Part shown: positions 1 through 16,063 of the stretch, piece after piece
Layout of the letters: each line of letters starts with the position of its first letter
How positions within the stretch are numbered: position 1 is the first letter of the stretch
From: a virus
Length of the DNA: 20,083 bases
IMG/VR virus record: IMGVR_UViG_3300032047_000188
Coordinates: 1 to 20,083 of that record
Direction: 5' to 3' (one strand)
Translations under genes and position numbers: made by a program
Notes under the pieces: model-generated
Seen by the model: only the letters and a program-made list of their open reading frames with translations
Told to the model about the DNA's origin: nothing
The model's database searches: none

Positions 1-1603
1 CTGTATGAATACTAAAGTTAGCACTTATAGGTTGAGTTATGGTGTGTATATCTTCATGCTGTAGCCCCAGAGAACTCGCTCCTGATGCTGAAGGGAACTT
101 ATTAACGTCAACTTCTTTTAACTGAGGGCTAGAAAATCTTTTAAACCTTCTGGACATGCCCACTCGAAAATCTACATAAGGACCGATATCTATATCTATT
201 ACATTACTAGCGCTTAATCCTCCAGTTTTTCCTAGAACATCACCTCGATCCATTCTGCCTTTACAGACCATGGCTACGTCATCACCGGTAGCACCTGCAG
301 CAGGGTCTCTTAAATCGGCATCTCTATTATCAAGACACATTGTAGTATTACTGTCAATGTGTATATCAAAAATACCACCAATCTCACCCTCACAAAGAGC
401 ATAAGCAACATAAATTTTAGAAGCATCTTCGTTATCTGTATCTACAAAAACCGGAACAGTGTCTATTTTTTGAACACCGTAAACAACAGGAAGATGCCTT
501 GCAGAAAGGTTAAAAGACAGTTCGGTGTTTGTAGGAATATACACATCTCTATATCTAGTTCTTTTTCCGCCGAACCAATCACCATTAATATCTACCGTAT
601 ATGGCTGAACCTCCTTACGATTGTAAAGAGCCATAATATTTATAGCTTGATTAGAGTGCTGAAATCCGTAGTCTCCCGCATAGGCTGGGCGCACTACTGC
701 ATCTGGATCTGGATCACCATTTCCATCGATAGCACGATGAGCTTCATCTAAAGTTAGTCGACCGGTTACTCTTGTGAAGTCTCCCCAATGACTAGTAAGT
801 TTCCAGGTCATTGTGGAGGTATTTAGTACGTCCTCTCGTACATCTCCCCCATTAATTAGACCTTTGAAATATATAAAAGGTGTGCCAACTATTGCACCAC
901 TATCAGGGTCAATGATCGCTTTATATACTGTTACATCTCTATTCAAATAGCTGGTAAAATTTGTCGTGTCATCTTTATTTGAAAATAGCCCTGCTATTTC
1001 CTCAGATACAAGATCAACCTGGTAAGTGGTGTTGGAAGCTACCCCTATTCCTAGAGTTTGACCTCCTGCTCCTGCAGACCCATAAGTGAAATCCTTTCCA
1101 CCATTTCTAAACTTTTTAATAGTAACAGATACGCCGTTATTGGGGCCGCCACCAGCTATTCGAGTAAACTGTATTTTATCTCCTTCCGAAAAACCCAAAG
1201 CAGGTAAGTCAATATCTGTCTCTACAAGAGTTCCTCCAAAGGTAGGATTAGTTATTAATCCTGTTGTACCTACAGGGTTTGCATCGAGCACCAGAGTCAT
1301 ACCGGTTGATTTTGCTTCTGTAGTTTCAGTCGTAGAACTAACACTCATAAGCTTATTAGCTATGTAGGTTTGTTCTCCTGTAAAATTACCTTCGGAATCT
1401 TTGGTAAGATCATCGAATTTTAAATCAAAAGCACAGTCAGTGATATATGCAAAAGTATCCGCTCTTCCTGAAGTCCCGCCCTTGAGGTTCGCAGATGCAA
1501 TAGGCTTCTCAAACTTCACCAAATGAGCGTAAGTAAAGTTTAAATCTGAATTACTCTTAAAATTATTTTTAATAGAGCTATGTAAGTTTCTTAAGTTTGA
1601 CAT
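1..1603 (-). CDS. Tail tip/hub protein, lambda gpL-like plus J-like (partial, 3' end missing)
   Basis: This frame is open from the ATG at 1603 to the left edge, giving 534 codons with no stop, so the C-terminus is outside the window. The ATG overlaps the stop of the preceding gene by one base (TAATG), which suggests translational coupling. Residues 1 to about 330 look like the lambda gpL/DUF1833/DUF2163 type of minor tail protein: an early YITDCAFDL stretch and, near residue 305, an AGDYGF stretch where these families carry 'pGD.gF'. From about residue 345 the sequence changes to the J-like hub pattern: LPVVYG near 371, then YALCEGEIGGI at 401-411, which matches the 'EGEI.GI' core of tail tip attachment proteins. 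In such phages this protein closes the tail tip and contacts the host receptor. The family call is from remembered motifs; the L-J fusion is inference. Confidence 0.82.
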   Translation of the reverse strand, partial: MSNLRNLHSSIKNNFKSNSDLNFTYAHLVKFEKPIASANLKGGTSGRADTFAYITDCAFDLKFDDLTKDSEGNFTGEQTYIANKLMSVSSTTETTEAKSTGMTLVLDANPVGTTGLITNPTFGGTLVETDIDLPALGFSEGDKIQFTRIAGGGPNNGVSVTIKKFRNGGKDFTYGSAGAGGQTLGIGVASNTTYQVDLVSEEIAGLFSNKDDTTNFTSYLNRDVTVYKAIIDPDSGAIVGTPFIYFKGLINGGDVREDVLNTSTMTWKLTSHWGDFTRVTGRLTLDEAHRAIDGNGDPDPDAVVRPAYAGDYGFQHSNQAINIMALYNRKEVQPYTVDINGDWFGGKRTRYRDVYIPTNTELSFNLSARHLPVVYGVQKIDTVPVFVDTDNEDASKIYVAYALCEGEIGGIFDIHIDSNTTMCLDNRDADLRDPAAGATGDDVAMVCKGRMDRGDVLGKTGGLSASNVIDIDIGPYVDFRVGMSRRFKRFSSPQLKEVDVNKFPSASGASSLGLQHEDIHTITQPISANFSIHT

Positions 1604-2334
1604 TAAGGCTGGGCCTCCTCAAGACTTAAAGAAAATTTATATAGTCCATCTACTCCGAGGGCATATTGTTGTGTATCTCTTTTCATTATTACTCGTATTT
1701 TTGGGTTGTGAAAATTTACAGCCGAGTTTACGGATACGTCTTTAGCAAGGGCAGGAGTAAAATGTATAATTCTTTCATTACCATTTACTATATCTCCAGT
1801 AACTTCAAAAACATCCTCTGTTTCGACTTCAGTAACCATATATGCTTTTGTATGATTACTATCTAAAGGATCGGTAAAAGTGAATAAATCACCTGGTCTA
1901 GGGTCTCCGCTACTAGGCCCTGTCATGCTAGTTCCGTCAATTTTAATATGAGTGGATCCAGCGGATTGAGCTTCATCAGTAGAAACCTGGTTTGAGGCAA
2001 CGTAAGTTGCAAAATCGGGATCTCTAGGAACTCTATACTGCGGCAAAGAAACGAAGAAAGGATCTAATCCCCCTCTCTTATTTAACAAAAAGTTATAAAC
2101 AGGCTCAAATTCATCTCTAGTCATAGGATTATAGTTAATATCAATAGTCCACTTATGAAATCCATAGCTTCTAGTAATTAACCTTCCTGAGTTTGTTCTA
2201 TTTTTCATTATTTTTGACTCAGAGGCTAGTTTTACATCTTTAAAACCTGGTCCATATGATCCAGCCGTGTTACCCCCTGCATCTGATATTGCATAATCGG
2301 GATCTGGTAAAGTATTTTGTTTAGTTATTGGCAT
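1603..2334 (-). CDS. Minor/distal tail protein (Dit- or gpM-like position)
   Basis: A 243-residue protein between the tape measure and the tip protein, the place where siphoviruses encode their distal tail protein. The ATG at 2334 is preceded by AGGA about nine bases upstream and follows the tape measure stop by 11 bases. Residues about 45-100 contain SYGFHKWTIDINYNPMTRDE followed by an LLNKRGG stretch, a layout seen in distal tail proteins whose N-terminal beta-barrel forms a ring below the tube. The C-terminal part (KIRVIMKRD, then LYKFSLSLEEAQP) ends in alternating beta strands. The middle, about residues 110-200, looks like an inserted beta domain with FTFTDPLDSNHTKAY. I recognise the position and overall character but no diagnostic motif, so the exact family is uncertain. 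Confidence 0.65.
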   Translation of the reverse strand: MPITKQNTLPDPDYAISDAGGNTAGSYGPGFKDVKLASESKIMKNRTNSGRLITRSYGFHKWTIDINYNPMTRDEFEPVYNFLLNKRGGLDPFFVSLPQYRVPRDPDFATYVASNQVSTDEAQSAGSTHIKIDGTSMTGPSSGDPRPGDLFTFTDPLDSNHTKAYMVTEVETEDVFEVTGDIVNGNERIIHFTPALAKDVSVNSAVNFHNPKIRVIMKRDTQQYALGVDGLYKFSLSLEEAQP

Positions 2335-2345
2335 CGTTTATATTC

Positions 2346-5300
2346 CTAGTATTGATCTGGATCTATTGATTCCAAGAAAAATTCTCCGTTTTCATTAGCT
2401 GCTTCTCGTATCATTCCAATTATATTTCCTCGTTGGTTAAGGAGCAAATCTTGTACGCCTGCAGAATCTACCGCATTTATAGAGAAGTTTACATTTGTTG
2501 GTCCGCCCATATCTTGTCCCGAAGGAATAATTTCCCCTGAAGTATTTGGCATAAATAATTCTGGACCTTGCTCACCAACTATGTAACCTCCTCCCGCTCT
2601 GTGTTTATATCCTGAGAAGGCAGGCTTGAAGTTTGTAGCACCTGTTCCATACCCCGAAGAGCCTCTCATATATGCTAATTCGCCTGCCGCATTATTACCT
2701 TTGGCTAGATCTACACTATTTTGTCTTTCTCCCATTGCTACTTTAGATGGGGCAGCAGGAGCTGATCCACCTCCGCCCTGATAACTTGTACTTGCAACAA
2801 GTGCCAAACTAGCTGCACCCATTGCTCCGATCACACCCGACCAGGGTAGACCAAACGTTTCAGGAGAGAACTCCATAGCTTTCATAATACCTACTGCTGT
2901 AGAAGTAATAATTTGAGCCATTTGTAGTTTTTTCTGTGTGTCAAAGGCTTTTCTTGCTATATTTTCTTTTTTCTTTTCTAAGGCTTTTAGTCTAGCAACA
3001 CTTGCTTCTGATTTTCCATCTCGTTTCTTCTCTGCCGCTATCTGCTCATCAATAGCCTTAATTCTAGCTTTTGAATCTGCCGCCATTATTGAGGAAACCT
3101 GGGCTATAGCTGCGGAAGCAATCTCTAAACCAATCTGTACTTTATCTCCTCCTGCTTCAATATCTTCAAAAGCACCTACAAAAGCTTCAGTCATTACAAA
3201 AGCACCAGATACAACAGAAGATACTAGAGGACCGTCAGGGCCCATCTCTTTCATCATCTCCCGCATTCCCGCAGTAGCTTCCATCATTTGGCCGATTTGC
3301 TCGCTAAGTTTTTCCTTAGGATTAGATATTGCGTTATCCAGCATACTGTCTGCTGCAAATGCAAATTCTGCACCCATTGCGCCCCGTCTCTCTACATTTT
3401 TGTTCTTTTGCTCTTCGGTCATATCTTTAAGATTCTTGGCTAGTTTTCCTCTCAAAGCGAGTTGCTCTCTTAGGAGTTCGTTTTCTTTTTCTAAACCCGG
3501 AACGGCTATTTCTAGTTCTGCTTCTACTAATTCTATGTTTCTTTGTATTGCATTTCCTTGCATACCTAGCTTATCGATAAGACTACCTGTATAATTGTCT
3601 GCAGCTGCTTGATCTTTTGCTAACTCTTTATATCCTGAGTTTATATCTTTTAATTGCTGATTAAAAGACTTAAGTAGTTTAACAGGATCTTGACCCGATT
3701 TAGGAGTAATTCCATAAGCTGCCAGTATGTCTGTAGCTTTTTTGTTTGCTGCAGATATTCCTTCTGCATTATCTAGTATGGCCCCTATCTCTTTAAGAGC
3801 AGTACTAGTATTATCTATACCCTTTGCATATTTACCCCAAGAATCAGTTAAACTTCCAACAGTATCTTTGGCGGAGTTTACTAGATCATTAAATTTTTTG
3901 TAAGACTCAAACGCCCCCTTCAATGATATACTTAAAGCATCATATTGAGCTCTTAAGACTTCTTCTGTTATATCACCGCGTAGGAAGTCTTGTCTTATTT
4001 TTGCGGTTTTTGCCAGTGTGGTTTCTACTAGCGTGAGTGCCTCTGAAGTAGGAGCCCCTTCATCTTTTAGTTTTTGTAGTCTTGCTCCTATCATTTCTGC
4101 GGATCTGTCAAATTGACTCATGGAATTTAATAGTTCTGATCTGAATAAGTTTTTTTGCTCTTCGCTAACTTCGCCTAACTTTTCTTTTTGTTTTTCAAGT
4201 CGGCGTATATAAATTTCCTGCGCCTCAATGTCCACGTTACTTACTCTTAGATCACCACCTGCCTGTCTTTTACGCAGATCGCCTAATTTTTCCTCTGCAT
4301 CCGCTAACTCTCGAGTTTTATCAACCTGTTGACCAAGTACCATAGCGTTATAGGCGCCTATTGTATCTCCTATGGCTGAGGCTGTTTCTCCTACTAGACC
4401 TGATAAAGGCTCCAATGTTTTTACCCAAGCAGAGGTTTCATCCTTTGATTTTCCTATTGTGGCATTGAACTGTTGAACGACTTCATCAAACTCTTTAAAT
4501 CTCTCTGCATTTTTCTTTGCTTGAGCTTCTAGTCGATTGTCTTGTAGTCCGAATACCTTTTCTATTATAGGGTATAGTAGGGTGAATGCCGCGAGTGCCA
4601 TACCAATGTAAGGCATCATTGTCAGTAGCGCAGCACCCAAGAATTTAACACTGGCGGCCACACCTGTTACCACTCCCTGTCCTATGGTCAACGTAGCAAA
4701 AAATACATTTTGAGATGCAGTAGCTTTTATAGTATCCGCAACTAGTACTTTAAGAGTATCAGCATGAGCTTTTGCAGCAGCAGTTACACCAACCTCTTGC
4801 ATGATATTTAAAGCATTTGTAAAATTAAGTTTTGCAGTTGCTAAATCTTGTTTAAAAATCTCTCTAGACAACTGTTGTCTCATGCTTTTTGCTTGTTTTA
4901 ATTTTTTATTTCCTACATTATGATGATTAATAGTTTTTGTCAATTCTTTCATCATTTTTGTAAGAGCTTCTTTGCTTCTATCCGTATTGTGGGCAAGCAC
5001 GTTAAAAGCATTACTAAGACCTTTAGTAGGTTTTATAGCTTTTAAAGAGTTGTCTGCCTGCGTTTTTGTACGCTCGGCTGCTTGGGCAGAAGCCGCAGAC
5101 ATTGCAGAAATGCCTCCAACAATAGTACCAGCAACAGATCCAGCATATAAAGCTACTAATGCGCCAAGAGCCGCGGTGTTTGACGCGAAGAAATTAGCAA
5201 CAGGCCCAAGTAAAGAATTTAAGGAACCAATTACACTTTTTGAAATATCGCTAAGAGAAGCTGCTAGTTTTGAAAATGCGCTTGCCTCCATCGACTGTCC

Positions 5301-6020
5301 AAGCTCTCCGAACTTTTCAGAACCCTGAGTAATGATAGCATTGGTAAATGCCATACGTTTTTCAAACTGAGTAAGCTCATTAACATTTTTATTTAAAGTA
5401 CGAGCATAGTCTTCAGCTGCTTGGTCCAGTCGAACCATGATACCTAATTCATCCAGAATCTCAGGCTCTAGTTTTGCAGCACCTCGAATAAGTCTATCCA
5501 TTGCATCGGCCATGTCTCTACCCAACGCTAGAGACGCTCCTTTTGCAACTTCTGCTAAACCACTTAATTGATCTTCGCTAAATCCTGCGGACACACCAAC
5601 AGCCGTAGCGCGCATAGCTTGCTCGGCTGATATGGCATTATCTGTTATTTCTACTAACTTCTCAGATACGAGAGTTAAGTTTCTACCTGCAGATCTACCG
5701 GTAAATTCAATACCTTCTTGCAGTTTGATGATTGCATCGTTTCTAGATAGGAGTCCGAAAGCAGCGGTCAAGGCAAAAACCCTTGCAGCAATTTCGGCAT
5801 ATGCAGGAACTAGACCGCCCTGCATACCTGTTGTCATTTTTGAAAACGCTTTGGTACTATTAGAAGTTGCTTGTGCAACCCCTTTTTGACCTTTCTTATA
5901 CTTATCAGCAGCTGTGGTAGCTTTATCAGTACTAGCCGCAGCTTTTTCTGCTTGATGACCTATCTGCGTGAGAGTGCCATCTTCGCTTACCTTAAACTTG
6001 ACCTGAATTGTATCCGCCAC
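2346..6020 (-). CDS. Tail tape measure protein
   Basis: At 1224 residues this is by far the longest gene here. It lies directly after the tail chaperones and before the distal tail genes, as expected for a tape measure. The start is GTG at 6020 and overlaps the upstream stop (TAGTG). The N-terminal third is alanine-rich and helical. Hydrophobic stretches lie near residues 283-308 and 450-490, the latter containing FLGAALLTMMPYIGMALAAF. Long coiled-coil regions fill the middle. Residues about 1010-1050 form a charged helix ending in KKLQMAQIITSTAVGI, followed by a Gly-rich region. The C-terminal AGGGYIVGEQGPELFMPN is a classic tape measure tail motif. At the usual ~1.5 angstrom per residue, the tail would be roughly 180 nm (inference). 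No lysozyme or peptidase motif was seen. Confidence 0.95.
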   Translation of the reverse strand: MADTIQVKFKVSEDGTLTQIGHQAEKAAASTDKATTAADKYKKGQKGVAQATSNSTKAFSKMTTGMQGGLVPAYAEIAARVFALTAAFGLLSRNDAIIKLQEGIEFTGRSAGRNLTLVSEKLVEITDNAISAEQAMRATAVGVSAGFSEDQLSGLAEVAKGASLALGRDMADAMDRLIRGAAKLEPEILDELGIMVRLDQAAEDYARTLNKNVNELTQFEKRMAFTNAIITQGSEKFGELGQSMEASAFSKLAASLSDISKSVIGSLNSLLGPVANFFASNTAALGALVALYAGSVAGTIVGGISAMSAASAQAAERTKTQADNSLKAIKPTKGLSNAFNVLAHNTDRSKEALTKMMKELTKTINHHNVGNKKLKQAKSMRQQLSREIFKQDLATAKLNFTNALNIMQEVGVTAAAKAHADTLKVLVADTIKATASQNVFFATLTIGQGVVTGVAASVKFLGAALLTMMPYIGMALAAFTLLYPIIEKVFGLQDNRLEAQAKKNAERFKEFDEVVQQFNATIGKSKDETSAWVKTLEPLSGLVGETASAIGDTIGAYNAMVLGQQVDKTRELADAEEKLGDLRKRQAGGDLRVSNVDIEAQEIYIRRLEKQKEKLGEVSEEQKNLFRSELLNSMSQFDRSAEMIGARLQKLKDEGAPTSEALTLVETTLAKTAKIRQDFLRGDITEEVLRAQYDALSISLKGAFESYKKFNDLVNSAKDTVGSLTDSWGKYAKGIDNTSTALKEIGAILDNAEGISAANKKATDILAAYGITPKSGQDPVKLLKSFNQQLKDINSGYKELAKDQAAADNYTGSLIDKLGMQGNAIQRNIELVEAELEIAVPGLEKENELLREQLALRGKLAKNLKDMTEEQKNKNVERRGAMGAEFAFAADSMLDNAISNPKEKLSEQIGQMMEATAGMREMMKEMGPDGPLVSSVVSGAFVMTEAFVGAFEDIEAGGDKVQIGLEIASAAIAQVSSIMAADSKARIKAIDEQIAAEKKRDGKSEASVARLKALEKKKENIARKAFDTQKKLQMAQIITSTAVGIMKAMEFSPETFGLPWSGVIGAMGAASLALVASTSYQGGGGSAPAAPSKVAMGERQNSVDLAKGNNAAGELAYMRGSSGYGTGATNFKPAFSGYKHRAGGGYIVGEQGPELFMPNTSGEIIPSGQDMGGPTNVNFSINAVDSAGVQDLLLNQRGNIIGMIREAANENGEFFLESIDPDQY

Positions 6021-6346
6021 TAGCGTTTTCTCTTTAGCTTCTCCCTTTCTCTTTTCAATGCATCTTGAGATTGTTTGATAGCTCTTGATTCTAAGTAACT
6101 TATAATTTCTAAAAATAATCCTAAGTTATCGGAATCTACATCACAATTTTTTATATAAAAAGGTAAAGCAGTATAATCTTTACCTATAAATCCTATGTCT
6201 GGAAAAGCTCTATCACCCAGATACGAAAATACCTCTAATGCATCTGCTACGATATCCGGAAAGTCAGATAAATCAGGAGGCATTTCCTCGGGATCTGGCT
6301 CTTTTCCAAGTTGTTCACACATTAATAAATAACGTTCTTGAGTCAT
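6020..6346 (-). CDS. Tail assembly chaperone, downstream part (gpT-like, probably made by frameshift)
   Basis: The ATG-started version is 108 residues, but the same frame stays open upstream to 6421 with coding-like sequence (residues such as DRLFKQLDKYFKNAESK before the ATG). That frame is +1 relative to the preceding chaperone. The ATG at 6346 has no good Shine-Dalgarno and sits inside a perfect 7-bp inverted repeat, so independent initiation looks poor. The protein carries PEEMPPDLSDFPDIVADAL and FIGKDYTALP, then a highly charged C-terminus (KREREKLKRKR). This pattern is familiar from T-domain chaperones of marine phages. In lambda, the frameshifted gpGT binds the tape measure and recruits tube protein. 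The most likely real product is a fusion of about 260 residues. Confidence 0.78.
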   Translation of the reverse strand: MTQERYLLMCEQLGKEPDPEEMPPDLSDFPDIVADALEVFSYLGDRAFPDIGFIGKDYTALPFYIKNCDVDSDNLGLFLEIISYLESRAIKQSQDALKREREKLKRKR

Positions 6347-6356
6347 TTTTGACTCA
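6339..6356 (-). promoter_or_regulatory. Perfect 7-bp inverted repeat enclosing the start of the T chaperone frame
   Basis: On the minus strand TGAGTCA is followed by AAAA and then TGACTCA. The candidate ATG at 6346 is formed by the end of the loop and the start of the second arm. In RNA this hairpin would hide the ATG, and the Shine-Dalgarno region is weak, so it argues against free initiation and for a frameshifted product. It starts more than 40 bases after the AAA-G slip site, probably too far to act as the direct frameshift stimulator. Confidence 0.6.
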
Positions 6357-6371
6357 GCATTCTTGAAGTAC

Positions 6372-6421
6372 TTATCCAGTTGTTTGAACAGGCGGTCCTT
6401 TTCTTGCTGTGCGAAAGTTAT
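6372..6421 (-). promoter_or_regulatory. Probable programmed +1 (or -2) frameshift window
   Basis: The zero frame (chaperone G) and the +1 frame (chaperone T) are both open only here. The +1 frame has a TAG at 6424-6422 and the zero frame has a TAA at 6374-6372. Two slip sites would let the P-site tRNA re-pair after moving one base: TTT-C at 6416-6413 (Phe to Phe) and AAA-G at 6401-6398 (Lys to Lys). A shift at AAA-G would give a fusion of about 261 residues. I saw no canonical -1 heptamer, and -1 would not reach the T frame. The existence of frameshifting in tail chaperones is established; this site is inference. Confidence 0.6.
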
Positions 6422-6806
6422 CTAAATCAAAGACTACCTCGTTGAGCCATGTATCAAACTCTGCTGAAGAACTTACAAGTGTTTGAGCATTATCCTCAGT
6501 ATATGTAAGTGTTTTTTCTGGGTCTTCATTAGCTACATCTACTAATAGTAAAGTTTCTAGGTACTTATATTTTAAACCTTTCCAGTTTTTTATTACTGCT
6601 TTTGTAAAATACTCTACAAAACGCTCTTCATCGATCTCGTCTGTAGCTTGACGTGTTTTTCTGTCAAATTTTGTAGTAGTACATTTCTTTCTTAGGCTGG
6701 TTAATTCTTTTCTCGATAGATTTACCACTTCTACGGTAAATCCTTCTAAGCCTGGAAAATCGACCCAAACTGCTTTGGTATCGACCATAAGTGCTTTTAA
6801 ATCCAT
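6372..6806 (-). CDS. Tail assembly chaperone, upstream part (gpG-like)
   Basis: A 144-residue protein with ATG at 6806 and a good Shine-Dalgarno (CAGGAG, six bases before the ATG). It opens MDLKALMVDTKAVWVDFPGL, then has NLSRKELTSLRKKCT and a conserved-looking middle ending in EERFVEYFTKAVIKNWKGL. This N-terminal design (a short beta 'binding energy' segment, 'R.el..l.kk' and a helix 'f....v..W.Gl') is common among siphovirus tail chaperones that precede the tape measure. The zero-frame stop at 6372 lies only 26 bases before the next ATG, and both frames are open between 6421 and 6372. The role inferred from lambda gpG/gpGT is to coat the tape measure during tail assembly; it is not expected in the virion. 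Confidence 0.85.
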   Translation of the reverse strand: MDLKALMVDTKAVWVDFPGLEGFTVEVVNLSRKELTSLRKKCTTTKFDRKTRQATDEIDEERFVEYFTKAVIKNWKGLKYKYLETLLLVDVANEDPEKTLTYTEDNAQTLVSSSAEFDTWLNEVVFDLDNFRTARKGPPVQTTG

Positions 6807-6822: not shown

Positions 6823-8367
6823 CTAAGTGTTGTTAAGTTTAATTACATTCCCTAAAGTTGTGGGATTATCGTTCATAGTCCACTCATAGTTATGAGTAAA
6901 AATCTCTCTAACATTTGCTCTGTTAGTAAAACTACAATTAGAAAGATTTAACTGAAATCCTTTATTGGAGGAATTTGAGTTTCCTGCTTTAATAACTAAA
7001 GTCTGACCAGTTTTCCAAGAATCTATATCTGCGTCTTTTGCTTTATCTCCAAAAATGTAACGCTCAATAGACCCTGTTAAAGATCTTTCTTTAAGTGTGA
7101 AGTTAGAGGGGTACATAGTGTTACTTTCATTAGTAACATTTAATGCATCGTTGAGGGTTCTATAGGGATTCCATTCAATATCATTTTCTAACTCTATAGT
7201 ACAAGCTAGAACTCCATCTGATATGTTAAGACCTCCTATAGTTGTTTCCAAGTCCTTTACCCGTTGGTAAGTTTTTTGTGATGGAACAACATCAATCTGT
7301 TGGAGATAACTGTAAATACCTTCTGAAGATGGCGTCTGTACTACAGATAACTCTGCTCCTTGCCCCTCTATATTCAACTTGAGATTCTTTAATTTCTCAA
7401 TTACGAATGTCCCATTTGTGATTACACAGGAGTTTATCTTGTAAGCCGTTTTTCTTTGGTCTGTAAAAAACACATATAAATCAAATGTCTTCAATGTACC
7501 ATTATTAAGATCTACTAAATGTTCAAAAACAGGTAGAAAACTGTTTTGTTCTATAATGTTTAATTCAAACGCAAAGTTTGCTGGATTGGCATATTTTATG
7601 TTTGAATCTTGAAAAAGTTTATTGCTTTCGTGCAAAGTTCTTTTAGAAAACTTTTTATCTGTAAAAGTTTGGTTAAAACTTATATCCGCAACATCTAGTA
7701 ATAGAGGAGCCGATGAAACTAGTACCAAAGAGTTTGTATAGACTCTTAAAGGAGAATACGCTCTTCCTGGCCACTGCACTTTATAAGGATTTGCTAAACT
7801 AGTAGATCCGTGCCCTGCTATATCGTCGTACCCCTTTAAGTATCCTCCATCATCTCCATCAGACCAGGCAGTTAAACTGTTATTACTGCTGGAGGTAAAA
7901 AGGATTTGTCTACCATCAATCCATACTTTTATAGTACCCTGGCTTAATTTTATTTCCCAAGTTACATTATGAACTCTGCCATCGAATTCAGGTAATTGAC
8001 TCAGAGGTACATTAAAAACTATTCTATTTGTTCCTGTAGTATTACTTTGAAAGTCACCTGCCCCAGTTCTAATATGGAAAAAAGCAGTGTTAAAAAAGCT
8101 TTTTATACCAATCCAAGTCCCTGTAGTCTGTCCTCCATGCTCAAATAAAACATAATTATCAGTATCTGCAATACTAGATTGAGTAGGAAGTTCGACATCT
8201 GCCGACATTACAACATTTTGAGTACGAGCAGTACTGCTAAACGCTCCAGCAACACCGTCAATCTCAGCAAAAGGTTCGTGGGTTTCTGACAGTGTGAGAC
8301 CTGTCTCAACATCTACATTAGGGTAGAAATAAACCTCTGCGTTTTTTAAAAAATTGTAGTCAGCCAT
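6823..8367 (-). CDS. Tail tube paralogue with inserted LamG/concanavalin-like domain
   Basis: A 514-residue protein from ATG 8367, preceded by TTGGAGAG five bases upstream. A TTG at 8397 with AAGGAGG eight bases upstream is an alternative start, but it lies within a terminator-like hairpin. Residues 1-17 (MADYNFLKNAEVYFY) align by eye with the tube protein start (MADTLFFSRDTKVYL). Residues about 20-215 are a LamG/concanavalin-like beta sandwich (LFEHGG..TGTWIGI, then DGRVHNVTWEI and TIKVWIDGRQ). After residue 220 tube similarity resumes: VADISFNQTFTDKKFSKRTL against LDGFSFSQTTNTTEVTLNE, and AYKINSCVITNGTFVIE against TYKMEGCVVNEASVDFD. The similarity continues to the end. I infer a tail-surface, glycan-binding minor tube or tip subunit. 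The gene sits between the tube and chaperone genes and has its own promoter. Confidence 0.8.
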   Translation of the reverse strand: MADYNFLKNAEVYFYPNVDVETGLTLSETHEPFAEIDGVAGAFSSTARTQNVVMSADVELPTQSSIADTDNYVLFEHGGQTTGTWIGIKSFFNTAFFHIRTGAGDFQSNTTGTNRIVFNVPLSQLPEFDGRVHNVTWEIKLSQGTIKVWIDGRQILFTSSSNNSLTAWSDGDDGGYLKGYDDIAGHGSTSLANPYKVQWPGRAYSPLRVYTNSLVLVSSAPLLLDVADISFNQTFTDKKFSKRTLHESNKLFQDSNIKYANPANFAFELNIIEQNSFLPVFEHLVDLNNGTLKTFDLYVFFTDQRKTAYKINSCVITNGTFVIEKLKNLKLNIEGQGAELSVVQTPSSEGIYSYLQQIDVVPSQKTYQRVKDLETTIGGLNISDGVLACTIELENDIEWNPYRTLNDALNVTNESNTMYPSNFTLKERSLTGSIERYIFGDKAKDADIDSWKTGQTLVIKAGNSNSSNKGFQLNLSNCSFTNRANVREIFTHNYEWTMNDNPTTLGNVIKLNNT

Positions 8368-8386: not shown

Positions 8387-8408
8387 AGGGGTCTCAAAAA
8401 AGACCCCT
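8387..8408 (-). terminator. Terminator-like hairpin / possible attenuator in a leader
   Basis: The minus strand reads AGGGGTCT, loop TTTTTG, AGACCCCT, then a run of T bases: an 8-bp perfect stem with U-tract, a textbook intrinsic terminator. It lies downstream of the promoter at 8430-8458 and upstream of the start codon at 8367, so it would act on transcripts from that promoter as well as on read-through from the tube gene. An AAGGAGG just 5' of and entering the stem would be partly hidden when the stem forms. Confidence 0.82.
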
Positions 8409-8429: not shown

Positions 8430-8458
8430 ATTATAGTCCAAAGGACCATAAATGTCAA
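8430..8458 (-). promoter_or_regulatory. Consensus sigma70-type promoter before the tube paralogue
   Basis: The minus strand has an exact TTGACA (-35, 8458-8453) and an exact TATAAT (-10, 8435-8430) separated by exactly 17 bases. Transcription should begin near 8424-8422, about 55 bases before the start codon at 8367. The spacer contains a small dyad, GTCC-TTT-GGAC, that could be an operator or chance. Two exact hexamers with optimal spacing in a short gap are very unlikely by chance. Confidence 0.88.
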
Positions 8459-8483: not shown

Positions 8484-9644
8484 TTACGCAGAGAAGTACT
8501 TCAAAGCAACTTCGTCAGTACCATCTATAGTGCTAGGTAATCCATGGAAATTCGTTTCTAAAGAGATAATATCATCAATAGAGTGAGTTGGAATTTCTAG
8601 ATGGGCTTGCGCTACAGTAAACTGTAATCTATTTGTATTAGCGGTGGTGCCGCCGATATTAAATATTAAACCAAAGCTATTTGTAATAGTATCTCGATCC
8701 TCAATCAATCTCTCGAATAAATCTGCACTTGAATCAGTCTCAGCATTCAAGTAGCAAGTAAAGCTACCACCAATAGATCTGGTGCCTGTAACTGCTCCAA
8801 AAGGTTCATTAATTACACCCAACGTTTCTGGAGTAATAAAGTTGATATTATTACTTATAGTAATATTACCGCCGGTCAAAGTAAGATCGTAAGTTTCAGC
8901 AGTGGCATCCGCATCCGCAGTAACCCCTGCCGCTAATAGATGATCATCTGCCGTCGTCATTGTAAGTGAAGTCAAACGATTACGAATAAAGTTAGAGGTT
9001 GTTGTGGTGCCTTCAGTAATAGTTGGGTTCGGCTCATTAGCTACTTCTGTGAGCTTAGTACCCATACCTGACCAATTAATAGTTGCAATCCCTTCAACAT
9101 CAAAATCAACGCTCGCCTCATTAACAACACAGCCTTCCATTTTATAAGTTTGAGAATTATTTTTACCTTTCCCAATTACAAAAAATAGGGTGCCTGTTCC
9201 TAAAGATGAAACATTTGAGTTTTCCCAGCTAATTGCTAGACCAGCGGCTTTGTTTCCATAAGTAAGATTACTAAAGGCGGTACTAGATGTAGCATCTACA
9301 GGTTTGGTGTAACTAGCTGCACCTACCATCATAGCCCATAACGCTTCTTCCACTGCGTGAGTCTTAGCTTCATCATCAGCCCCGCCGCCAGCTACTGTAC
9401 CACCCGCCATGAAAGGTCTTACATAAGTGGAAAAACTCCACTCTGCAGGAGCAAAAGAATCATTAAAAAGACGTCTGCCTCGACGAGTTGCCCCATCAGT
9501 GCCAGACATTTCGTTTAGAGTAACCTCTGTAGTATTGGTAGTTTGTGAAAAAGAGAATCCATCTAATACGGGTATTTCCCAAATCCCGTCACCTACCTGT
9601 AGATAGACCTTTGTATCTCTGCTAAAAAATAATGTATCTGCCAT
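8484..9644 (-). CDS. Major tail tube protein (two tube-like domains)
   Basis: A 386-residue, Thr/Ser/Asn-rich beta protein that forms the stacked rings of the tail tube. ATG 9644 has AGGAGA about seven bases upstream. The first half has VYLQVGDGIWEIPVLDG, FSFSQTTNTTEVTLNE, WSFSTYVRP and TYKMEGCVVNEASVDF. The second half repeats the same order in weaker form: ITISNNINFITPETLG, RSIGGSFTCYLN, and a final RLQFTVAQAHLEIPTHSI. This suggests an internal duplication, as in the T5 tube protein pb6, whose rings are trimers of two-domain subunits. The place after the tail terminator and before the chaperones is the normal one for a tube gene. The next gene is a diverged paralogue carrying a lectin-like insertion. 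The tube role is confident; two-domain architecture is by-eye inference. Confidence 0.88.
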   Translation of the reverse strand: MADTLFFSRDTKVYLQVGDGIWEIPVLDGFSFSQTTNTTEVTLNEMSGTDGATRRGRRLFNDSFAPAEWSFSTYVRPFMAGGTVAGGGADDEAKTHAVEEALWAMMVGAASYTKPVDATSSTAFSNLTYGNKAAGLAISWENSNVSSLGTGTLFFVIGKGKNNSQTYKMEGCVVNEASVDFDVEGIATINWSGMGTKLTEVANEPNPTITEGTTTTSNFIRNRLTSLTMTTADDHLLAAGVTADADATAETYDLTLTGGNITISNNINFITPETLGVINEPFGAVTGTRSIGGSFTCYLNAETDSSADLFERLIEDRDTITNSFGLIFNIGGTTANTNRLQFTVAQAHLEIPTHSIDDIISLETNFHGLPSTIDGTDEVALKYFSA

Positions 9645-9707: not shown

Positions 9708-10160
9708 CTAGTATCGAACCTCTATTAGTATTTCGCCTACTCCTAAAGGCTCTAATACACCCTCGTCAGTGTCAACACTAACGATAGTGATTTGTTGCGT
9801 ATATTGAGTCACACCTTTGCGATCTTTATACGCTAATCTTGAGTTAGTTTCCAAAACAGTTTCAACATCTTCGAGTAGCTCGTCTAGTGCTTGAACTGAG
9901 TCTTCATCTTGTACATAGCATCTTAGTGTGATTGATAAAAATCTATCTTTATAGCCACCACTTTGATACTCTCTTGTTTCAGAGCCTGCATTTAAATGAA
10001 CAGCAGGAAACTCTTCTACTTCGTCCCAGAATTTTAAACGAGGGGATACATTTCCTGCTAAGTCAGTAAGAAACTCTCCTGTGCCGTTTATGCTTTCTAG
10101 TTTTTCAACAAGAGCAGTTACAATACCTAACCGTCTAGTTGTATAATCTCTTGTTGCCAT
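9708..10160 (-). CDS. Tail terminator / tail completion protein (gpU-like)
   Basis: A 150-residue protein whose ATG at 10160 overlaps the stop of the upstream gene (TTTAATG) with TAGGAG in front. It has the typical design of lambda gpU-type terminators: an N-terminal helix (RRLGIVTALVEKLESI), a PAVHLNAGSETREYQSGGYKDR strand-loop region, then SITLRCYVQDEDSVQALDELLEDVETVL. The last helix pair and the closing strands GVLEPLGVGEILIEVRY match the family layout. It caps the tube after tape-measure-defined growth and joins the tail to the head neck. It lies immediately upstream of the tube gene, as in lambda (U then V). Confidence 0.85.
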   Translation of the reverse strand: MATRDYTTRRLGIVTALVEKLESINGTGEFLTDLAGNVSPRLKFWDEVEEFPAVHLNAGSETREYQSGGYKDRFLSITLRCYVQDEDSVQALDELLEDVETVLETNSRLAYKDRKGVTQYTQQITIVSVDTDEGVLEPLGVGEILIEVRY

Positions 10161-11428
10161 TAAATTCTCCTAGTGTAAAATCTTCCGATTGCGAAATGAG
10201 CTGCTATTTCTCTAATAGATTTATCAATCAAGTCTCTAGGATCTCTATCTCCATTTGACCAGTTTCCGGCACTGCCCTCCTCAAATACTTGATAAGGGTT
10301 TCTTTGATAAGTATATCCGATACTGGGAAACCCTTTTGGAGTCTGTGTAATTTCAGTTACCTTTACACTTTCGGCAAACCTGCCTGTTCTATTTACAAGA
10401 CCTGGCTCTCTCATGTTTTTTCTTACTGTTTCTGGTAGTTTTTGATTTAACATTCCCAGTAACTGCAAAGGTTGAGCGGATGCAGATTTTTTTCTTAGTC
10501 TTTTTGGTTTTTCAGCCCTTGCTCTCCTACCCCTACCTTCACTAATTTTTCTAGTAACATTTAATTTAGTAGGAGCTTTTCTACTTGGCTCAAACTCTAA
10601 ATCTTTAGACTTTACAGTCGCCCCCTTTACTTTTTTAAACGGTTCTAAAACTTTTTGCCGGGCTTCTTTCTTTTTTCTTCCTACTAAGCTATCAGACCCT
10701 GTAAGATCCTCAGCTTCTAGCCTTAGCAAAGCATCTGCTATTAAACCCTGTAGATGAACTTTATCTTTCTTTAGTCCAGCACCATGAGATCTGTTTTTAC
10801 TAGCTGATTCTAAAGAGGCATTAATTTCGCCTTTTTCATCTATTTTTACTAAACTAAATATTACGGCGACTTCTGTTATGTTCATCAGGGAGGAAGGAAC
10901 TTCACCAAACTCAGTTAACGCATCGCTTACCCTATGATCCCATACAGCGCTGTCTCCTGCGTGACCTATATCTAAAAATACGTGCTCTCTGAAAACCTTT
11001 CCATAGTCTTTATATAGTTTTCGCATTGAGCTATTAAAAGTTCTTTTTGAATTAAACATTATAGATTTTAATAATACAAAAGAATTTTTATGTGTAAAAT
11101 AATCTTTATGATCCTCTGCAGGACTTATAGTTACAGAAAAAGATACATTTGTTATACTTTTTCTATGTACCTGCACTCCATGCAACTTACCTGTAAATGC
11201 AGCTTTTAAATCTTTAAAATACTTACTAATTATAGGTTTAACTGGCGCTTTCTCGGGGTCAACCCCATCTCTTAACATTTGAAAGCGTATTTGATTTTCT
11301 AAACCTTTTCTACTTAAATAAAACGTATGAGGCTTAACATCAGAAACATACTTTCTATAAGTCTTGCTACCTTTCTCCATATCTTTTTGGAGCTTTAGCA
11401 GGAAGTTCTTTAAATCTCCTGCTGCCAT
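10160..11428 (-). CDS. Unusually long neck / head-tail joining protein (HK97 gp10-like C-terminus)
   Basis: A 422-residue basic protein in the slot between connector and tail terminator, where phages usually encode a 100-170 residue head closure or gp10-like protein. Only the last ~100 residues look like that family: NRTGRFAESVKVTEI, then a YQVFEEGSAGNWSNG stretch and RDLIDKSIREIAAHF. Residues 1-200 are mixed alpha/beta with aromatic segments (KDYFTHKNSFVLL, FREHVFLDIGHAGDSAVWDH). Residues about 245-325 are a Lys/Arg-rich, low-complexity linker. ATG 11428 overlaps the upstream stop (TAATG) without a clear Shine-Dalgarno, so coupling is likely. I do not recognise the N-terminal domain. Its position supports a virion neck role. 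Confidence 0.65.
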   Translation of the reverse strand: MAAGDLKNFLLKLQKDMEKGSKTYRKYVSDVKPHTFYLSRKGLENQIRFQMLRDGVDPEKAPVKPIISKYFKDLKAAFTGKLHGVQVHRKSITNVSFSVTISPAEDHKDYFTHKNSFVLLKSIMFNSKRTFNSSMRKLYKDYGKVFREHVFLDIGHAGDSAVWDHRVSDALTEFGEVPSSLMNITEVAVIFSLVKIDEKGEINASLESASKNRSHGAGLKKDKVHLQGLIADALLRLEAEDLTGSDSLVGRKKKEARQKVLEPFKKVKGATVKSKDLEFEPSRKAPTKLNVTRKISEGRGRRARAEKPKRLRKKSASAQPLQLLGMLNQKLPETVRKNMREPGLVNRTGRFAESVKVTEITQTPKGFPSIGYTYQRNPYQVFEEGSAGNWSNGDRDPRDLIDKSIREIAAHFAIGRFYTRRI

Positions 11429-16034: not shown

Positions 16035-16063
16035 ATTATATCGACTTTAAGCTAACTTGTCAA
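16035..16063 (-). promoter_or_regulatory. Consensus sigma70-type promoter for the HNH-portal-capsid operon
   Basis: In the 84-base gap after the terminase stop the minus strand has an exact TTGACA (16063-16058), a 17-base spacer and an exact TATAAT (16040-16035). The start of transcription should fall near 16028, some 25 bases before the HNH ATG. It drives HNH, portal, the small basic protein and capsid up to the terminator at 12062. Confidence 0.9.

Follow-up and report, generated by a model that had tools for sequence, protein, structure and literature searches.

Carbohydrate-binding decorations of phage tail proteins are already known, and so is the p140 protein. In phage T5, p140 is a duplicate of the tail tube protein (9% identity), and a single trimeric, pseudo-hexameric ring of it separates the last tube ring from the distal tail protein (PMC10038345). 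This ring is described without an Ig-like decoration and is encircled by a dodecamer of p132, to which the side fibres are anchored; p140 together with p132 has been called a landmark of large T5-like phages only (PMC10038345). Recombinant skunaviruses that received an evolved distal tail protein (evolved Dit) became fully infectious on hosts with exopolysaccharide (PMC10688798), and host-cell binding was shown for modules on tube and neck proteins (PMC6669499). Here we analysed a 20,083-base virus record (the window), in which a p140-type gene contains an additional domain of predicted lectin-like fold.

Results

The minus strand of the window holds a T5-type structural module in the order terminase, portal, protease-capsid fusion, head-tail adaptor, p143-like protein, tail terminator, tube, p140, two chaperone frames, tape measure, distal tail protein and the start of the hub (Table 1). 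The alignment of the tube protein covers only part of T5 pb6, so that the C-terminal Ig-like domain is apparently missing. The tube proteins of three relatives (L022 4357-5844, L037 3769-5265 and L067 4234-5814) contain internal extra sequence and have 495-526 aa; most close relatives have about 370-390 aa. The chaperone ORFs of the window (6020-6806, minus strand) are offset by +1, and in L003, L004, L006, L010 and L011 the ORF coordinates of the second frame overlap those of the first, also with a +1 offset; a programmed frameshift between the two frames is suggested.

Table 1. Positions of the features in the window and the evidence for each
Feature	Position	Strand	Evidence
Large hub protein, N-terminal part, cut by window end	2..1603	minus	open ORF; phrog_2048 3.5e-10; relatives 2206-3370 aa
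Distal tail protein, pb9-like	1603..2334	minus	phrog_1302 9.5e-23; PF21425 7.1e-5, below cut-off
Tape measure protein	2346..6020	minus	phrog_3779 2.8e-93
Tail assembly chaperone, second frame	6020..6346	minus	phrog_3914 8.6e-19
Tail assembly chaperone, first frame	6372..6806	minus	phrog_313 7.1e-14
p140-type baseplate tube protein with inserted lectin-like domain, 514 aa	6823..8367	minus	ORF; PF23779; phrog_3889; Foldseek T5 p140
Core part 2: residues ~214-514, remainder of p140 fold	6826..7728	minus	PF23779 over 226-502; Foldseek
Type A insert, residues ~15-213, predicted concanavalin/laminin-G-type beta sandwich; borders +-5 residues	7729..8325	minus	alignment, fold
Core part 1: residues 1-14, first beta strand of tube domain 1	8326..8367	minus	alignment with insertless relatives
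G+C-rich hairpin then T run, in p140 leader	8387..8408	minus	sequence
Sigma-70 promoter-like site, perfect TTGACA-N17-TATAAT, upstream of p140 gene	8430..8458	minus	sequence
Tail tube protein, pb6-like	8484..9644	minus	phrog_3575 1.2e-52; T5 pb6 chain 26-353 of 464, E 1.4e-35
Tail terminator	9708..10160	minus	PF23818 3.2e-33
p143-like tail completion protein, weak match	10160..11428	minus	PF25747 6.4e-5, below cut-off; phrog_3725 2.7e-4
Second TTGACA-N17-TATAAT site, between terminase gene and HNH/portal genes	16035-16063	minus	sequence

The p140 gene lies in the tail module after the tube gene and is one uninterrupted ORF from the ATG at 8367 to the stop ending at 6823; the TTG at 8397 chosen by the ORF finder is merely an alternative start. 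A Pfam search matched PF23779 (Baseplate_Tube_p140) to residues 226-502 (E 2.4e-9, 37.1 bits), above the curated cut-off of 27 bits, and phrog_3889, 'base plate tail tube protein', also matched the product (1.7e-7). When the full-length model (mean pLDDT 57, with core blocks mostly above that) was submitted to Foldseek, T5 p140 (7qg9_G) was the first match at 1.4e-12 and T5 pb6 the second, giving residues 220-514 the structural resemblance to a tube protein that a sequence-only reading of this DNA had implied. Searched by sequence against solved structures, the whole product found none, and the core profile retrieved just designed proteins and an Sm-like protein at E 0.09-0.5, which we took as chance.

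That reading had called the gene a diverged tube paralogue, with similarity at the N-terminal strand that breaks at the insert and resumes after it. Profile comparison of p140 cores with tube proteins makes the relationship significant (97.3% probability, E 2.3e-11), with the alignment running from the first strand onward. Pairwise BLASTP between the p140-gene product and the window's own tube protein was not significant (E 0.13), so the similarity noted earlier is weak evidence by itself. Furthermore, one relative lacking the insert, L010, has matches to both PF23779 and the tube family PF18906. On these sequence and model comparisons, the product is a T5 p140-type baseplate tube protein, a tube paralogue, of a marine T5-like siphophage. 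Since T5-like phages normally carry this paralogue, a second tube-type gene is their ordinary layout and not, as had been supposed, an unusual one.

Relatives were collected as 20 loci through a tube query and, with a profile of the core only, as the best 80 of 264 relatives, which gave 77 distinct p140 proteins. The core profile was required, and the whole protein as a query found no relatives among viral contigs. Alignment against insertless relatives places the start of the insert at residue 15 and its end near residue 213, about 200 residues in all. The insertion point is the first beta hairpin, whose strands are joined by a short turn in relatives lacking the insert; it falls between columns 14 and 16 of the core HMM, which in the profile alignment correspond to the VGDG turn of the tube protein, just where the insertion had first been placed. 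The large insertions of other carriers likewise fall between columns 14 and 16; for L075, whose local match begins past its insert, the position was read by eye.

Two kinds of insert were found at this site. Among the 77 distinct proteins, type A is present in 10, the window included, type B in 4 (L003, L071, L074 and L075), and 63 have no insert, counts that are not population frequencies because the best 80 of 264 were chosen by similarity to the window core. Type B is Laminin_G_3 (PF13385) by Pfam in L003, L071 and L074, and the L075 domain is alignable to those three. A search based on the insert added L107 and L114-L116, with type A at the hairpin, and L122, in which the domain is fused at the p140 C-terminus (residues 303-493 of 505). 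L114 (5938-8256) and L115 (5938-8205) have, besides type A, another large insertion of about 180-240 aa; it lies in the second tube domain, near core column 218. One contig, L100, has two p140-like genes (162-1031 and 1703-2656), and two relatives were found in MAG contigs with beta- and gammaproteobacteria labels, although co-binning of phage contigs may account for this. For cultured phages, no insert-bearing p140 was seen among the 26 records that the whole protein matched, of which the three inspected (H1-H3) encode hub or stand-alone proteins, and the core alone gave one non-significant match.

An earlier fold from ten sequences left the insert unresolved. With 30 related domains aligned, the type A insert was modelled as an all-beta structure with a pLDDT of 88 and a pTM of 0.87. 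The nearest solved folds in Foldseek include laminin LG5 (9e-6), CBM40 (5.5e-5) and neurexin LNS, with TM-scores of about 0.5, and the nearest viral models include concanavalin A-like proteins. PL7 alginate lyases were also matched (E ~1e-4, TM 0.35-0.39). Matches to clostridial neurotoxin receptor-binding domains and NTNHA were read as the common jelly-roll fold alone. None of the 30 type A family members had a LamG match in Pfam, type A has no Pfam family of its own, and the insert profile found nothing of note among solved structures by sequence. Some acidic, histidine and tryptophan positions are invariant across the family. We also considered whether types A and B are diverged copies of one family and rejected this, the hhalign probability being 0.1%. 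Together, the models support assignment of type A to the concanavalin/laminin-G fold class; membership of the LamG family by sequence is unsupported. The description of some 200 residues as LamG/concanavalin-like, and of residues 20-215 as a beta sandwich, thus agrees with the predicted fold.

Relatives of type A were detected by tblastn in hub ('GTA TIM barrel-like') proteins of Rhodobacter and Dinoroseobacter phages (E 6e-13 to 3e-6) and as a stand-alone protein in Paracoccus phage ParKuw1. In metagenomic contigs the domain lies near residue 800 of large proteins whose N-termini, judged from sequence, are like J-type tail hubs, and it is also present in repeat-rich fibre-like proteins. In the domain tree, the copies from p140 hairpins form one group (82/94 support) and the C-terminal copy of L122 groups with the hub copies (100/99). 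This suggests that type A entered the hairpin site once and that the C-terminal fusion was separate. In the core tree, with insert columns removed, the window is on a long branch and type B carriers form one clade (99/95). The insert states need 7 changes, with gain and loss indistinguishable, and well-supported branches force at least 4 changes for type A, which makes loss or exchange after entry likely.

We also inspected the region upstream of the p140 gene. Of 62 distinct tube-p140 gaps, that of the window included, 60 contain a sigma-70 promoter-like site that matches TTGACA and TATAAT at 10 or more of 12 positions and has a 17-base spacer. The window contains two perfect TTGACA-N17 sites when TATAAT or TATACT is allowed, compared with 0.01 expected from shuffles, and in several relatives, too, there is a second promoter-like site elsewhere upstream in the locus. 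In many loci the p140 promoter-like site is followed by a G+C-rich, terminator-like hairpin and a T run; in others the hairpin comes before it. The hairpin-first order looks like a tube terminator followed by a p140 promoter; in the opposite order, which is that of the window, the hairpin would be part of the p140 leader. Separate control of p140 would fit a need for far fewer copies of p140 than of the tube protein, which in T5 builds 40 trimeric rings.

Relatives have a p132/LtfC-like gene behind the hub (phrog_3304 1.5e-19, with a weak PDB match to p132); its carriers include the insert-bearing L029 and three insertless relatives. In marine relatives (L155 7097-7435 and the L029 contig), this collar gene is directly behind a giant hub.

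Discussion

The reading that we favour, and consider fairly probable, is that the gene encodes a p140 ring protein with a concanavalin/laminin-G-type insert in its first hairpin, so that a ring at the tail tip presents outward modules as putative glycan-binding accessory adhesins. By homology with T5, the core would form one trimeric, pseudo-hexameric ring where the tube ends and the distal tail protein begins. Because the lumen is occupied first by the tape measure and then by DNA, an insert of this size would not fit inside and should face outward from the ring; the earlier suggestion that it could project outward is accordingly judged likely. Because T5 p140 is a single trimeric tip ring, the modules would most likely be found at the tip in about three copies. 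There they would most likely serve as accessory adhesins, with reversible binding to glycans of the host surface ahead of the true receptor step, a role proposed from the fold and by analogy. Many lectin-fold domains bind no glycans.

A simple replacement of the fibre collar by the insert is not supported, since the p132/LtfC-like gene is also present in L029; the module would rather work beside the collar. With the T5 ring wrapped by p132 and a p132-like gene in L029, the insert must share the space of the collar. The best of the competing explanations is that the insert is structural and binds no glycans, and that the p140 ring uses it as a protein-protein interface to the collar, side fibres or hub. 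In its favour are the p132 collar with side fibres carried by the T5 ring, the coexistence of the p132-like gene with the insert in L029 and the ability of beta-sandwich domains to serve as interfaces. However, the insert is absent from 63 of the 77 relatives (best 80 of 264), two unrelated domains occupy the one site, and relatives of the domain are in many different proteins with different partners. Patchy presence, unrelated domains and varied carriers fit swappable binding better than a fixed interface, and we regard the structural explanation as unlikely, if worth keeping in mind.

The insert could also be an enzyme acting on a surface polysaccharide, which we consider improbable. Its concanavalin-type fold is common to glycanases and PL7 alginate lyases, the latter are in the Foldseek list, and the type A family has its invariant acidic, histidine and tryptophan residues; against this, the non-catalytic laminin G, LNS and CBM40 domains score better, and no catalytic motif was found in the insert. 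Still less probable is the proposal that the tube incorporates lectin-bearing subunits among its own, which would decorate the tail lengthwise. Binding either along the tail or at one end had been envisaged, and the second is much the likelier: although the core is a tube paralogue, it belongs to the p140 family, which forms a single tip ring in T5, and the tube has a separate gene next door. An assembly artefact or broken gene, conceivable for a 20 kb metagenomic virus record, is contradicted by the single uninterrupted frame and by the same arrangement in more than 10 other contigs from separate samples, and can practically be dismissed.

The same loop contains type A, the unrelated type B or nothing; the site thus behaves as an exchange port, and the ring resembles a socket into which different host-binding modules can be fitted. 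A wider proposal, which we offer tentatively and rate at somewhat below an even chance, is that on marine T5-like tails unrelated lectin-fold modules have been placed at the first p140 hairpin independently, and that the swapped module sets the polysaccharide, and hence the hosts, that the phage can hold. Through its sequence, the insert would also provide an entry point for studying how uncultured marine phages recognise host surfaces.

In a brief search of open-licence papers, in which absence is not proof, we found no description of a lectin-fold insertion in p140. The window protein shares with T5 p140 (PDB 7qg9; PF23779) the core family, the predicted fold and the tube-adjacent gene. T5 p140 has 298 aa and is described without Ig-like decoration (PMC10038345), whereas the window p140 contains a lectin-type insert of about 200 residues; a ring known in T5 as undecorated and collar-wrapped here bears a lectin-fold module. 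The insert is of the same predicted fold class as the Laminin_G_3/concanavalin A-like lectins (PF13385), true members of which occupy the same hairpin in L003, L071 and L074, but it matches no such Pfam profile and has no profile kinship with those three domains. A relative of the same domain is present in the Rhodobacter and Dinoroseobacter phages, sited in the hub instead of the tube ring. The evolved Dit of lactococcal skunaviruses (PMC10688798, PMC6669499) is also a tail-tip ring protein with a carbohydrate-binding-type module that is patchy among relatives. There the carrier is Dit, the hosts are Gram-positive, the module is of another family and its binding role has been tested, whereas in the window the carrier is p140 and the role is inferred. 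The window p140 is thus outside the definition of an evolved Dit, its Dit being the product of a separate gene (1603-2334), although it may function in a similar way. With one insertion point common to two unrelated modules, the 'evolved Dit' principle would extend to another ring and another phage group.
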